DNA from: Dyella silvae
Lineage (GTDB): Bacteria; Pseudomonadota; Gammaproteobacteria; Xanthomonadales; Rhodanobacteraceae
Assembly (NCBI RefSeq): GCF_026421305.1
Contig: NZ_JAPJBQ010000005.1
Coordinates: forward strand, 1-64,000
DNA: 64,000 nt
Direction: 5' to 3'
In this document: in pieces, positions 1-60,823 of the stretch
Layout: every line of letters begins with the position of its first letter
Position numbering within the stretch: the stretch's first letter is position 1
Position numbers and translations under genes: made by a program
Notes under the pieces: generated by a model
Databases searched by the model: none
What the model was told of the DNA's origin: nothing
Seen by the model: the letters and a program-made list of their open reading frames with translations, nothing else

Positions 1-368
1 GATCTGAGGGGCCCCTGTGCGGCGGTGAGGGTTGGACGATCAGGCCCCGTAGGGGTGCCTGGCATGGATGCCAGGCACTTTTCGTCAGGGCAGGAAGCCC
101 TGTCGAAAAGCCCGGCCGACCCTCACGAACTGGCTGGGCGCAGCCCAGACAGCGCCAAGCGGGGTGCTCTTTCTTTTGGTTACTTTTCTTTGAGCAAGCA
201 AAGAAAAGTGACCCGGCCTCCGGCAGGAGGTCGGAAGCCCGCCGCAGGCGAGCCAGAGTGCGGAGTAGCCACAAAAGGGCAAAACACAAAACCGCCAGAT
301 AGAAACGTTACCGCGAGCACCCACCCCTCACCCCAACCCTCTCCCCGGAGGGGAGAGAGAGCTAAAGG
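1..368. repeat. Dispersed multi-hairpin repeat, copy A (cut by window edge)
   Basis: This non-coding block matches 13059-13428 and 60360-60716 almost base for base over its first 120 bases. It is a row of hairpins: arms at 56-65/68-77, a stem around GCAGG and CCTGC near 80-108, arms at 182-191/200-209, and a final GC-rich hairpin (CTCTCCCCGGAGGGGAGAG) near 338-360. Short reading frames across it are low-complexity and differ between copies, so I read it as structural rather than coding. The element probably continues to the left of the window. Confidence 0.85.
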
Positions 369-12399: not shown

Positions 12400-12471
12400 G
12401 GCGTTCTCGCTGTTGCTCCAGCGGATGCTGGACGTGTGGATACCGGTTCGCAACGGCGTGCAAGCTTTTAA

Positions 12472-12840
12472 CTCCCTCTCCCCTCCGGGGAGAGGGTTGG
12501 GGTGAGGGGCGGGTGCTCGCGATGACGTTTCTATCCCTCACCTTTGTTCTTTGGCTCTTATTGACGTTCCCGCGACCTGGCTCGCCTGCGGCGGGCTTCC
12601 GCTGTCCTGCCGGACAGCGGGTCACTTCTCTTTGCGTGGCCAAAGAGAAGTAACCAAGAGAAAGGCCACCCCGATGGCGCGCCTTCCGGGCTTGCAGCCC
12701 GGAAGGTACGCGGGCGGGTTGCGGGGTTTTTCGACAGGGCATCCTGCCCTGACGAAAAACTGGCCGGCATCCATGCCGGCCACCCTGCGGGCTATTCCTC
12801 CACCCGCCCGCCGCGTCATAGGGGCCCGGAGGTCAAGAGC
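12472..12840. repeat. Dispersed multi-hairpin repeat, copy B forward half
   Basis: This block begins with the GC-rich hairpin CTCCCCTCCGGGGAG (about 12475-12495). It then carries hairpins with arms CTGTCC/GGACAG near 12602-12617, ACTTCTCTTT/AAAGAGAAGT (12624-12633/12642-12651), CTTCCGGGCT/AGCCCGGAAG near 12682-12705, a stem around CAGGGC/GCCCTG near 12735-12750, and TGGCCGGCAT/ATGCCGGCCA (12761-12782). It is nearly identical to 59840-60210. The reverse-complement version of the same unit follows at 13022-13430. Confidence 0.88.
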
Positions 12841-12913
12841 GAGAGCCAGAGCCAGAGCGGCGCGCGACGCGCGCCAGAAGCAGCGCCCGTGGTTTCTCCG
12901 TGCCCATGGTTTC

Positions 12914-12996
12914 CCTGTAGGAGCGCACATGTGCGCGACCGCCGCGTCCCGTCGTTGCCGCTCCGTCGCTGGTCGCGCACAAGTGCGCTCCTACAA
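12914..12996. repeat. REP-like inverted pair
   Basis: TGTAGGAGCGCACATGTGCG at about 12916 and its near reverse complement ending GTGCGCTCCTACA at about 12995 face each other across roughly 30 bases. Each unit also contains its own small dyad (GCGCAC/GTGCGC). This is the usual paired REP arrangement. It sits between the two halves of repeat copy B. Confidence 0.75.
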
Positions 12997-13021
12997 AAAA
13001 TCCGCCAGACGAACTGCAATG

Positions 13022-13430
13022 CGATGTGCCGCGACAGCGGCACGAGCCGTGTGCTTTTGATCTGAGGGGCCCCTGTGCGGCGGTGAGGGTTGGACGATCA
13101 GGCCCCGTAGGGGTGCCTGGCATGGATGCCAGGCACTTTTCGTCAGGGCAGGAAGCCCTGTCGAAAAGCCCGGCCGACCCTCACGGACTTGCCGGGCTTC
13201 CAGCCCGGCAAGCGCCAAGCGGGGTGCCTTTTCTCTTGGTTACTTCTCTTTGGGCAAGCAAAGAGAAGTGACCCGGCCTCCGGCAGGAGGTCGGAAGCCC
13301 GCCGCAGGCGAGCCCGATCGCGGAGAAGTCACAAAAGAGCAAAAACGCGGAGCCGAAACAAAGAAACGTTACCGCGAGCACCCACCCCTCACCCCAACCC
13401 TCTCCCCGGAGGGGAGAGGGAGTTAAGAGC
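13022..13430. repeat. Dispersed multi-hairpin repeat, copy B reverse half
   Basis: This is the reverse-orientation unit. Its hairpins are GTGCCGC/GCGGCAC (13026-13032/13037-13043), TGCCTGGCAT/ATGCCAGGCA (13114-13123/13126-13135), a stem around CAGGGC/GCCCTG near 13144-13161, GCCGGGCT/AGCCCGGC near 13191-13209, ACTTCTCTTT/AAAGAGAAGT (13242-13251/13260-13269), CCTCC/GGAGG (13277-13281/13286-13290), and the closing GC-rich hairpin near 13400-13424. Bases 13059-13180 match 1-122 of the window almost exactly. Confidence 0.9.
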
Positions 13431-13448
13431 GTAAGCGCCGCGATAACC

Positions 13449-20332: not shown

Positions 20333-20392
20333 GGCTCCCTCTCCCCTCCGGGGAGAGGGTTGGGGTGAGGGGCGGGTGCTCGCGGTAGCGTT
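20333..20392. repeat. Isolated GC-rich hairpin module
   Basis: CTCTCCCCTCCGGGGAGAG followed by the GGTTGGGGTGAGG tail and GTGCTCGCG is the same module that ends each large repeat. Here it stands alone. It lies between the clpB terminator and the B12 riboswitch. Confidence 0.8.
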
Positions 20393-20654
20393 TATTTCCC
20401 TCACCGTCATCCCTGCGAAGGCAGGAAGCGCTTCACAACAGCCGAAGGCTGGTCATCCAGTGCCTTCGCTCTTTGCTTCTGGCCTGGAGCGCTGCATGCT
20501 TTTTTCTCCCTCTCGCCTCCGGGAGCTGGCTGTGGTGAGGTGCAGGGTTGAAGTCAGTCGGCATCACCTCATTCGCACCAAACGCATCCTGCTTGCCCCA
20601 AGTCACTTCCGCCACCACCCCGTCTGTTACCATGCCCCCGCCTGAGGTGACCGC
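20393..20654. other. Intergenic stretch with degenerate repeat remnants
   Basis: No credible gene is seen. Bases around 20406-20432 and 20450-20462 (GTCATCCCTGCGAAGGCAGG and CATCCAGTGCCTTCG) resemble a common proteobacterial intergenic repeat with a GCGAAGGC core. Another partial GC-rich hairpin copy lies near 20505-20535. The btuB promoter must lie towards the right end, but no clear -35/-10 pair stands out. Confidence 0.5.
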
Positions 20655-20852
20655 CGGCTCGTGCCGGTGGTTGAAACGGGAATCCGGTGCGGCGCGCCTG
20701 CGCTTATTCCGGAGCTGCCCCCGCAACGGTAGGCGAACCGCGATCCCCTGATCGCCGGAACGACATCAAGCCACTGTGCCACGTGCATGGGAAGGCGTTG
20801 TTCCGCAGAACATGACGTTCTGGTTCGCGAGCCCGGAGACCGGCCTCGAGGT
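20655..20852 (+). promoter_or_regulatory. Cobalamin (B12) riboswitch
   Basis: The classic conserved blocks appear in order: GGTGGTTGAAACGGGAA (from 20667), GCCCCCGCAACGGT (20717-20730), GCCACTG (20770-20776), TGGGAAGGCG (20788-20797) and the B12 box AGCCCGGAGACCGGCCT (20830-20846). It sits about 125 bases upstream of btuB and should repress uptake and cob genes when adenosylcobalamin is abundant. A short stem CCGCGC/GCGCGG (20943-20948/20955-20960) just before the ribosome-binding site could be part of the expression platform, but that is inference. Confidence 0.95.
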
Positions 20853-20975
20853 ACGACCAGACAGGCGGTGGGCCATGTCATGGATGCCGTGCCTCCCGTG
20901 CGGCCGCCACGTCTCCTTCCGCCTGCCTTTTACCCATGCAATCCGCGCGGGCAGGCGCGGTTGAGGAGCATTGCT

Positions 20976-59839: not shown

Positions 59840-60210
59840 CTCCCTCTCCCCTGCGGGGAGAGGGTTGGGGTGAGGGGCGGGTGCTCGCGGTGGCGTTTCT
59901 ATCCCTCACCCTCGTTCTTTCGCCCTTTTTGACGGTGCGGCGACCTGGCTCGCCTGCGGCGGGCTTCCGCCCTCCTGCCGGAGGCCGGGTCACTTCTCTT
60001 TGCGTGGCCAAAGAGAAGTAACCAAGAGAAAGGCCACCCCGATGGCGCGCCTTCCGGGCTTGCAGCCCGGAAGGTACGCGGGCGGGTTACGGGGTTTTTC
60101 GACAGGGCTTCCTGCCCTGACGAAAAACTGGCCGGCATCCATGCCGGCCACCCTGCGGGCTATTCCTCCACCCGCCCGCCGCGCCATAGGGGCCCGGAGG
60201 TCAAGAGCGA
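59840..60210. repeat. Dispersed multi-hairpin repeat, copy C forward half
   Basis: Nearly identical to 12472-12840. Hairpins include GC-rich CTCCCCTGCGGGGAG (about 59844-59862), CCTCC/GGAGG near 59970-59983 (GTCC/GGAC in copy B), ACTTCTCTTT/AAAGAGAAGT (59992-60001/60010-60019), CTTCCGGGCT/AGCCCGGAAG near 60050-60073 and TGGCCGGCAT/ATGCCGGCCA near 60129-60150. It follows the glnS start after a 164-bp gene-free spacer. Confidence 0.88.
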
Positions 60211-60327
60211 AGAGCGGCGCGCGACGCGCGCCAGAAGCCAAGTGCAGAGCGGAGGCCAAAGCCAAAGCCAAAGGGCATCGAGGCATACCTGCGCGTGGAA
60301 CATGGACACGGCTTCGCCCGGTGCGAT

Positions 60328-60716
60328 GTGCAGCGAAGCTGCACGAGCCTGAAGCTTTTGATCTGAGGGGCCCCTGTGCGGCGGTGAGGGTTGGACGAAC
60401 AGGCCCGCAGGGGGATCGGCATGGATGCCGATCCCTTTTCGTCAGGGCAGGAAGCCCTGTCGAAAAGCCCGGCCAACCCTCACGGACTTGCCGGGCTATC
60501 AGCCCGGCAAGCGCCAAGCGGGGTGCTCTTTCTTTTGGTTACTTTTCTTTGAGCACGCAAAGAAAAGTGACCCGGCGATCGGCAGATCGTCGGAAGCCCG
60601 CCGCAGGCGAGCCAGGTCGCGGCAGCGCTACGTCAGCGCCAAAGAAGATAGAAACGTTACCGCGAGCACCCGCCCCTCACCCCAGCCCTCTCCCCGGAGG
60701 GGAGAGGGAGCTAAAA
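60328..60716. repeat. Dispersed multi-hairpin repeat, copy C reverse half
   Basis: The reverse-orientation unit has stems GTGCAGC/GCTGCAC (60328-60334/60338-60344), GGATCGGCAT/ATGCCGATCC (60413-60422/60425-60434), GCCGGGCT/AGCCCGGC near 60489-60507, ACTTTTCTTT/AAAGAAAAGT (60541-60550/60559-60568), CGATC/GATCG (60576-60580/60585-60589) and the closing GC-rich hairpin near 60685-60710. Several of these stems differ from copies A and B by paired changes. Confidence 0.9.
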
Positions 60717-60823
60717 GCGGGCGCGGCGATTCACGAGGATGAACGGTGAAAACCCACCATCCCATCACCCCAGACCAAGCAAAAAACTTGCCCCACCACC
60801 CCCACAGCGCTAGCGTGTCCTCC

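Follow-up and report, generated by a model that had tools for sequence, protein, structure and literature searches.

The window analysed here is the 64,000-nucleotide stretch of Dyella silvae DNA that forms the start of contig C18 (NZ_JAPJBQ010000005.1). It contains two complete copies of a composite repeat element, in which a left half (type L) and a right half (type R) lie as an inverted pair around a spacer and within outer ends of the TM_ECO type (TM ends), together with the R half of a third copy, cut by the contig end:

12454..13440 (no strand), whole composite element (outer TM ends, L half, spacer, R half), from inverted arms and the alignment of 25 own-genome copies
12472..12840 (+), left half, type L
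13022..13430 (-), right half, type R
59840..60718 (no strand), second complete copy, with L at 59840-60208, R at 60324-60718 and TM ends at 59842-59876 (+) and 60674-60708 (-)
1..365 (-), R half of the copy cut by the contig end

Architecture and copies of the element

The arms of the element are 87% complementary over 112 nt (12562-12673/13220-13331) and 81% complementary over 106 nt (12454-12559/13335-13440), which bears out a preliminary description of the two halves as a large imperfect palindrome. That description had also presented each half as a row of hairpins, which proved correct, and the whole as a dispersed element, a view upheld by at least 59 pieces of the own genome that match the half 12472-12840 (40 of 159 candidates scored); the core motif pattern likewise gave 59 matches in this genome. 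The stem alleles that it listed were recovered within 1-2 bases of where they had been placed. Absent from it were the pseudoknot between a hairpin loop and downstream sequence, the mirror third strand, and the recognition of L and R as distinct types.

Two-half copies number about two dozen in the Dyella genome, including the one at 12454-13440. Contigs C2, C5, C7, C15, C16, C17 and C18 start or stop inside copies, indicating that the repeat interrupts the assembly. When 25 own-genome copies (E01, the window copy, to E25) were aligned, they showed a mosaic of outer ends, an optional CGTCATCCC-type insert and a core, the core being the part of the element that is conserved in other genera. In Dyella the core is usually nested in a second inverted pair ending in TM_ECO repeats, and some own-genome copies are without one or both outer ends. 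In own-genome copies such as L063 and L071, a CGTCATCCC/GGGATGACG-type repeat separates the core from the outer TM ends on one side or on both.

Among 148 neighbouring core-hairpin matches less than 900 bp apart, 125 were inverted with their ends outward, 20 had the same orientation and 3 the opposite one, counts in which 5 of the 20 and 1 of the 3 represent one hairpin called twice (the same-orientation ones 3 bp apart) and the 125 include at least one pair (L053, 82 bp) that is no genuine element. Both halves could be classified in 47 of the 125 inverted pairs (in the other 78 a half was unclassified or outside the set: 30 LU, 28 RU, 8 UU and 12 others), and these comprised 45 LR, 2 LL and no RR pairs, the classes being drawn from cores that were required to have an S1 hairpin with a near-mirror third strand (described below). 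The core halves thus fall into two distinct types, and the best L/R split of a FastTree tree misplaced only 6 of 237 cores. Loci of other families show the inverted arrangement again, at 385-1106 bp, in 8 of the 29 cases outside the own genome, the rest having no partner within the stretch scanned. Inspection of L116, L133 and L164 by eye showed a short TTTCGCC..GGCGA hairpin ahead of the core hairpin at both ends.

Hairpin, pseudoknot and third strand at the core end

The outer-facing end of each core half contains a hairpin (S1), a second pairing that crosses it (S2) and a purine tract:

12624..12651 (+), S1 hairpin of L, ACTTCTCTTTG/CAAAGAGAAGT, from inverted arms, covariation and a tree-aware test
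12636..12640 (+), S2 5' strand GTGGC within the S1 loop, from pairing against permuted sequences and covariation
12656..12663 (+), third strand AAGAGAAA, mirror of the S1 purine arm, from an allele-pair test, shuffles and the tree-aware test
12665..12669 (+), S2 3' strand GCCAC
13242..13269 (-), S1 hairpin of R, from inverted arms
13230..13237 (-), third strand AAGAGAAA of R, reading TTTCTCTT on the + strand, from sequence and the mirror rule
13225..13256 (-), S2 of R, TGCC 13253-13256 with GGCA 13225-13228, from sequence and the S2 rule

The S1 loop sequence GTGGC pairs with the downstream GCCAC in the manner of an H-type pseudoknot, with the purine tract AAGAGAAA in between. Judged by its letters, the core follows the general rule for purine-motif intrastrand triplexes (pyrimidine arm, purine arm, antiparallel purine strand, with A.A-T and G.G-C triads); the antiparallel matching of A to A and of G to G is the code of a purine-motif triplex, and the complementary strand would correspond to a pyrimidine-motif triplex.

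The third strand was an exact mirror of the arm in 155 of 179 equal-length contexts, as compared with a shuffled mean of 42.3 and maximum of 59 (5000 shuffles; 201 unique contexts with a purine run of at least 6, of which 22 of unequal length were left out). Of 30 allele pairs that discriminate between the two models, 28 also fitted the mirror better than a direct copy, in hairpins that had been found without any condition on the third strand, and the candidate of a third strand that copies the arm directly was rejected on this result. Pairing of the third strand with the other half was likewise rejected since, on inspection, L and R alleles can differ within one element and each third strand then follows its own arm. 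The third-strand statistics rest on the shuffle and allele-pair sets because the other core sets had been preselected for near-mirror third strands; neither the own loci L001-L030, which are duplicates, nor the riboswitch loci entered these counts, and in loci from the wide motif scans the search patterns fix most third-strand letters, leaving the Y/R/R positions free.

Shuffles overstate independence because the copies are related. A tree-aware test of co-changes, which ignores recombination, gave 15 for the mirror third strand (null mean 1.1, max 4) and 7 for the direct-copy alignment, 17 for S1 (null mean 1.1, max 4) and 8 for S2 (null mean 2.0, max 5). S2 pairing also exceeded that of permuted sequences (mean run 3.77 vs 2.99, with a maximum of 3.28 in 1000), and S2 allele pairs that were new appeared in distant families (TATC/GATA, TGTG/CACA, TCGC/GCGA and CGGC/GCCG). 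Six copies from the plasmid collection were viewed by eye: in one, from Pasteurella, the alleles differ between the ends and the rules are obeyed at both; the Burkholderia copy has kept S1 and the third strand and has no good S2; and in the P. piscicida copy the S1 arm is broken.

Covariation of the remaining helices

Ahead of S1 in the L half lies a further hairpin (H0), and behind the pseudoknot a closed multi-helix domain:

12600..12619 (+), H0 hairpin CGCTGTCC/GGACAGCG of L, its stem exchanged as a block between copies
12670..12824 (+), closed domain P1, CCC 12670-12672 with GGG 12822-12824, enclosing P2-P6; P1 is the weakest helix
12678..12712 (+), P2 hairpin, from covariation and the tree-aware test
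12713..12808 (+), P3 helix, GGCGGGT 12713-12719 with ACCCGCC 12802-12808, from covariation and the tree-aware test
12727..12759 (+), P4 hairpin with an internal A.A mismatch (12734.12752), from covariation and the tree-aware test
12761..12782 (+), P5 hairpin TGGCCGGC/GCCGGCCA, from covariation and the tree-aware test
12783..12791 (+), P6 mini-hairpin CCC/GGG, nearly invariant

The covariation set consisted of 40 of 53 diverse L cores (L056, the second core of L107, L113, L144 and L153 being among those omitted, without a fixed rule). Across the 68 pairs of eight helices, 93.1% of cells were paired, compared with 80.8% after shuffling and 39-46% when the partners were slid; 306 cells were changed on both sides (73 shuffled) and 12 on one side, and 48 pairs changed on both sides (23 shuffled). 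The tree-aware test gave 12 co-changes for P1 (null mean 5.7, max 11), 24 for P2 (6.1, max 12), 32 for P3 (7.0, max 12), 30 for P4 (4.4, max 11) and 18 for P5 (2.8, max 7). P2 to P5 thus clearly covary and P1 does so weakly. Three pairs of P2 are often broken, and the internal mismatch of P4 was AA in 27 of the 40 cores, AG in 8, AT in 3, GT in 1 and a gap in 1. The preliminary description had taken paired changes to mean a structure that is selected, in RNA or in single-stranded DNA, and the strong covariation, which includes the tree-aware results, supports this; simple mutual inversion of the repeat, which it had raised as the alternative, fails to account for the covariation, because this disappears when partners are slid by 1-3 columns.

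The same data bear on a neutral explanation, in which quasi-palindrome correction by template switching, a documented mechanism according to the accessible part of PMC8794818, and gene conversion between copies would produce the paired changes with no structure being selected. This would account for the exchange of stems as whole blocks without visible intermediates, as in the own-genome H0 stem types CCTCC, CGATC, CTGTCC, CTGCCC and ACCGC (39 of the 40 own-genome stems found with a search pattern that fixes the flanks and so sees part of the copies only have no mismatch in the inner five pairs). It would also account for the 12 one-sided against 306 both-sided cells, and it predicts that G.U and A.C pairs should be about equally rare. 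Template switching, however, yields inverted and not mirror repeats, and therefore leaves the third strand unexplained; the P4 mismatch stays A.A or A.G in 35 of 40 cores instead of being repaired; and covariation is seen in the S1 stem as well as in S2, whose pairing crosses that stem. Because it makes no mirror repeats and the P4 mismatch is unrepaired, we assign template switching a share in the stems and not the whole. As a complete explanation we regard it as rather unlikely; as a partial one it is a serious rival, and it may account for part of the stem covariation.

Wobble pairs and the question of DNA or RNA

A structure that is selected in RNA tolerates G.U pairs and not A.C pairs, and the working strand should therefore show more G.U. 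In pairs common to the predictions for both strands (a strand-neutral set, which tends to drop G.U-rich pairs), there were 48 G.U and 72 A.C in total. The L cores (91) contributed 5467 Watson-Crick, 30 G.U, 52 A.C and 107 other pairs, and the R cores (61) 3392, 18, 20 and 30, respectively; the hand-defined structure in 40 L cores gave 2478 Watson-Crick, 15 G.U, 32 A.C and 154 other. The preference for G.U on the transcribed strand that marks a structured RNA was thus absent from the repeat in these sets, whereas 30 cobalamin riboswitches of the family, taken through the same pipeline, had 33 G.U and 9 A.C on common pairs, and 136 G.U and 12 A.C when the structure predicted for the RNA strand was used (the riboswitch alignment came out antisense and its letters were read in reverse).

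When each strand of the repeat was instead given its own predicted structure, in cores preselected as above for S1 and the third strand, G.U exceeded A.C on both strands, at 158 vs 55 and 178 vs 31 in L and 156 vs 20 and 107 vs 21 in R. On such structures G.U made up 2.6-4.0% of cells in the repeat, compared with 10% on the RNA strand and 5% on the wrong strand of the riboswitch. Single mismatches in S1 (179 contexts) comprised 9 TG and 1 CA, with 8 of the 9 TG coming from one arm type, and an A lies opposite a C beside the inner stem of H0 in 29 of 40 own-genome stems, which would be G.U on the other strand.

These observations weigh on the alternative that the structure acts as RNA, each half serving as the folded 3' end of the preceding gene (a terminator or exonuclease barrier) or as a small RNA. 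Most copies lie just 3' of stop codons, with an enrichment between convergent genes; as the halves face outward, the transcript of each gene would contain one half in sense orientation; and the geometry also fits an RNA H-type pseudoknot, the opposite strand then being a pyrimidine-motif triplex of the telomerase-RNA type. The S1 mismatches and the excess of G.U on each strand's own predicted structure point the same way. Against this stand the absence from the strand-neutral set of the G.U preference seen in the riboswitch control, the lack of asymmetry between the strands, and the outcome of the Rfam search of the window at the gathering threshold, which returned a cobalamin riboswitch and tRNA only, with nothing inside the element. 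Elements of the TM_ECO type, moreover, had neither promoter nor terminator activity in the accessible part of PMC4666352. We consider the RNA explanation unlikely. Since there is no consistent overall strand asymmetry, either DNA is selected or both strands must fold, and the structure looks to be selected in DNA or on both strands; since G.U is no commoner than A.C in the strand-neutral set, unlike in the riboswitch control, the evidence favours DNA over a single RNA strand.

Outer ends and their relation to TM_ECO

The outer ends of the window copy conform to the pattern CCCTCNCCCN3-6GGGNGAGGGN3GGGNGAGGG, as given for TM_ECO in the accessible part of PMC4666352:

12474..12508 (+), outer end, exact TM_ECO pattern
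13386..13420 (-), outer end of the other side, TM_ECO pattern inverted

This pattern has 5 exact matches in the window against 0 expected, and 4 of them are the ends of the two complete copies. The fifth stands alone at 20337-20371, about 260 bases ahead of the cobalamin riboswitch at 20628-20862.

TM_ECO, or PIT, repeats were described as intrastrand-triplex repeats by Holder et al. (2015, PMC4666352) and earlier by Hoyne and Maher, cited there. According to the accessible part of that paper, TM_ECO forms a stable triplex in vitro, in vivo footprinting gave no evidence of a triplex, the repeats occur as inverted A/B pairs, and the authors saw no association with mobile elements, linking the repeats to genome instability without naming a function. 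As far as that text goes, our element and TM_ECO have in common the purine-motif intrastrand triplex code (Y-loop-R-loop-R), an intergenic location and the partial arrangement as inverted pairs of two types (A with B). TM_ECO differs in being one G/C motif of 37 nt that lies more often upstream of ORFs, while the core described here has another, A/G-rich sequence, includes the S2 pseudoknot and a multi-helix domain, and has a third strand that covaries with its hairpin (covariation having been examined in the core). The core hairpin does not fit the TM_ECO pattern, with A/G-rich S1 arms and third strand; the two share only the predicted folding class.

In the literature searched, which left subscription journals mostly outside, the TM_ECO paper was the only one close to this repeat family by sequence or description. 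The accessible part of PMC4666352 does not describe the A/G-rich core family, of which single matches may well be in its ITxF database, and that of PMC2267715 does not mention Xanthomonas. What appears to be new here is an A/G-rich family with a predicted pseudoknot and multi-helix domain and with third-strand covariation, a wobble comparison pointing to DNA, and an L/R heterodimer across a family.

Distribution

Matches to the half were present in at least 122 of 147 genomes of the family, covering 24 of 26 genera (four candidates scored per genome). Outside the family the core motif is rarer; allowing up to two mismatches, the motif pattern occurred in 22 of 369 genomes of the class (own included) and 21 of 272 genera, with counts of zero for the reversed control. 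Hosts outside the order, among the matches listed, were Halopseudomonas, a Thiotrichales MAG and a Desulfobulbaceae MAG, and records of the plasmid collection with the motif included ones from Burkholderia, Pasteurella, Pseudoalteromonas, Aeromonas and Ilyobacter (Fusobacteriota). The triplex-pseudoknot motif ranges over Gammaproteobacteria, Betaproteobacteria, Desulfobacterota and Fusobacteriota. On the Ilyobacter polytropus plasmid pILYOP01 (L359) it is reported at 6 places, of which one was viewed by eye, an unexpected jump between phyla.

The short consensus motif was found in 14 records of the plasmid collection, several of them chromosome-sized. Plasmids, phages and viral contigs were considered as carriers and set aside, the window core having one partial match in plasmids and no match in phages, and the exact pattern no match in viral contigs.

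Genomic context, possible mobility and possible cargo

The 24 own elements lay between 12 convergent, 11 tandem and 1 divergent gene pairs, as compared with 38 convergent, 184 tandem and 38 divergent among all neighbouring gene pairs called in these loci, and a wider set of 51 elements gave 25, 22 and 4; all of these contexts were called with a crude codon-model gene finder, which missed genes at element E18. At the site of the window copy the same two genes are adjacent, with the element absent, in 6 of 16 matched relatives, of which G049, G148, G102 and G154 have only a REPIN there and G151 and G078 a short gap. The window copy itself contains a GTAGGAGCGC-type inverted REP pair mid-element (12916-12995), and four relatives have only such a pair at this place; we take the pair to be of the REP class by name. 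At a second site (E07, contig C20), core-type sequence was seen by eye beside the same gene in 10 of 17 Dyella relatives.

A host function could be considered from this context, whereby the element would be a supercoiling site or a gyrase or nucleoid-protein site between converging genes, similar to BIMEs, with cruciform extrusion as its working form. The enrichment between convergent genes and the maintenance at one orthologous place (10 of 17 Dyella relatives, by eye) are consistent with such a role. We nevertheless judge it very unlikely, given that one site is without the element in six relatives, that genomes with the motif occur dispersed over the class (22 of 369), and that a protein site would have no need of a mirror third strand.

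No target-site duplication was seen at the two sites viewed by eye (E01 and E07, where flanks were not alignable across species), and no parent transposon in the loci examined, although inverted ends are present. The preliminary description had suggested looking in the genome for a transposase of the RAYT type; none was found, Y1_Tnp (PF01797) having 0 matches in the own genome with the control positive in 5 of 14 genomes, and RAYT was rejected as the mobiliser. The search for Y2 HUH transposases was silent in its controls, and the integron integrase TIGR02249 gave matches below the cut-off only, likewise in all 14 controls. No autonomous copy was found, there being no recombinase among the proteins scanned from 3 of 128 pairs with a spacing above 850 bp.

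Some long pairs enclose genes. In L253 (G039:C1, 2798-3700) a gene for a TIR-domain protein (PF13676) lies between L and R in a cargo-like position; L127 (a 1.6-kb element, 1159-2052) has two small genes without a Pfam match, one of which we presume by eye to be of the MazG type; and L148 encloses a GNAT acetyltransferase and a Cas3-HD protein. In L256 (G023:C1:2254000-2272000), same-orientation core arrays adjoin BrnT/BrnA, a ParE toxin and a RES/Xre pair. That some units carry or border defence-type and toxin-antitoxin genes in the manner of cassettes is suggestive only. As to the expectation that spurious proteins are probably annotated across copies, six ORFs lying across copies matched no Pfam family and three of these no NCBIfam family either.

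Interpretation and significance

Mobile insertion cassettes have terminal inverted repeats without a transposase, and the element resembles both these and MITEs in that respect, a few copies having passenger genes (the TIR protein); it differs from them in that its ends are whole folded domains with covariation and that neither a target-site duplication nor a parent transposon was found. With REP, BIME and REPIN sequences and their RAYT it shares inverted palindromic units, an intergenic location, non-autonomy and a mosaic structure. The units here, however, measure 230-370 nt instead of 20-40 nt and have two half-types, a triplex code and a pseudoknot, and compared with a REP or REPIN linked to a RAYT (a 20-40 nt palindrome, a tetranucleotide foot and a Y1 link) both size and sequence differ and PF01797 has 0 matches. 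The attC sites of integrons are used as folded single-stranded DNA; the likeness lies in folded single-stranded DNA as the proposed substrate and in the toxin-antitoxin genes beside unit arrays in one locus, whereas no match in sequence or layout was established and TIGR02249 remained below the cut-off.

Our best reading is a REPIN- or MITE-like element with predicted folded single-stranded DNA ends. On balance we think it somewhat probable that we are dealing with a dispersed, non-autonomous element made of two half-types in inverted orientation, whose conserved ends are kept able to fold as DNA, with a hairpin, pseudoknot and purine third strand followed by a helix domain. Each end would fold while the DNA is briefly single-stranded, in lagging-strand synthesis or transposition, and a putative trans-acting processing enzyme would recognise these folded structures and either copy the unit or move it, in the way that folded ends are recognised by an enzyme in trans in REPINs, at IS200/IS605 ends and at attC sites. 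Copies would survive mainly just behind stop codons because insertion does least harm there.

A wider proposal, which we put forward as doubtful though possible, is that the family represents a class of mobile DNA not described before, in which recombination would act on a complex, folded single-stranded DNA (a triplex pseudoknot with a multi-helix domain) that is riboswitch-like in its elaborateness and selected in DNA, and that the TM_ECO repeats in enterobacteria would be relics of ends of this type.

Comparing G.U with A.C pairs, like for like against an established RNA, is of help in telling DNA structure from RNA structure in any dispersed repeat, and it carries the warning that covariation alone is no proof of RNA. 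Whether DNA triplexes act in living bacteria is a long-standing open question, for which the natural alleles of this family provide an evolutionary test, in that the third strand changes along with the arm. The repeat family is also a concrete handle for finding a protein that reads such structures and, if our reading is true, it would supply the first covariation evidence, to our knowledge, for a selected DNA triple helix and pseudoknot.
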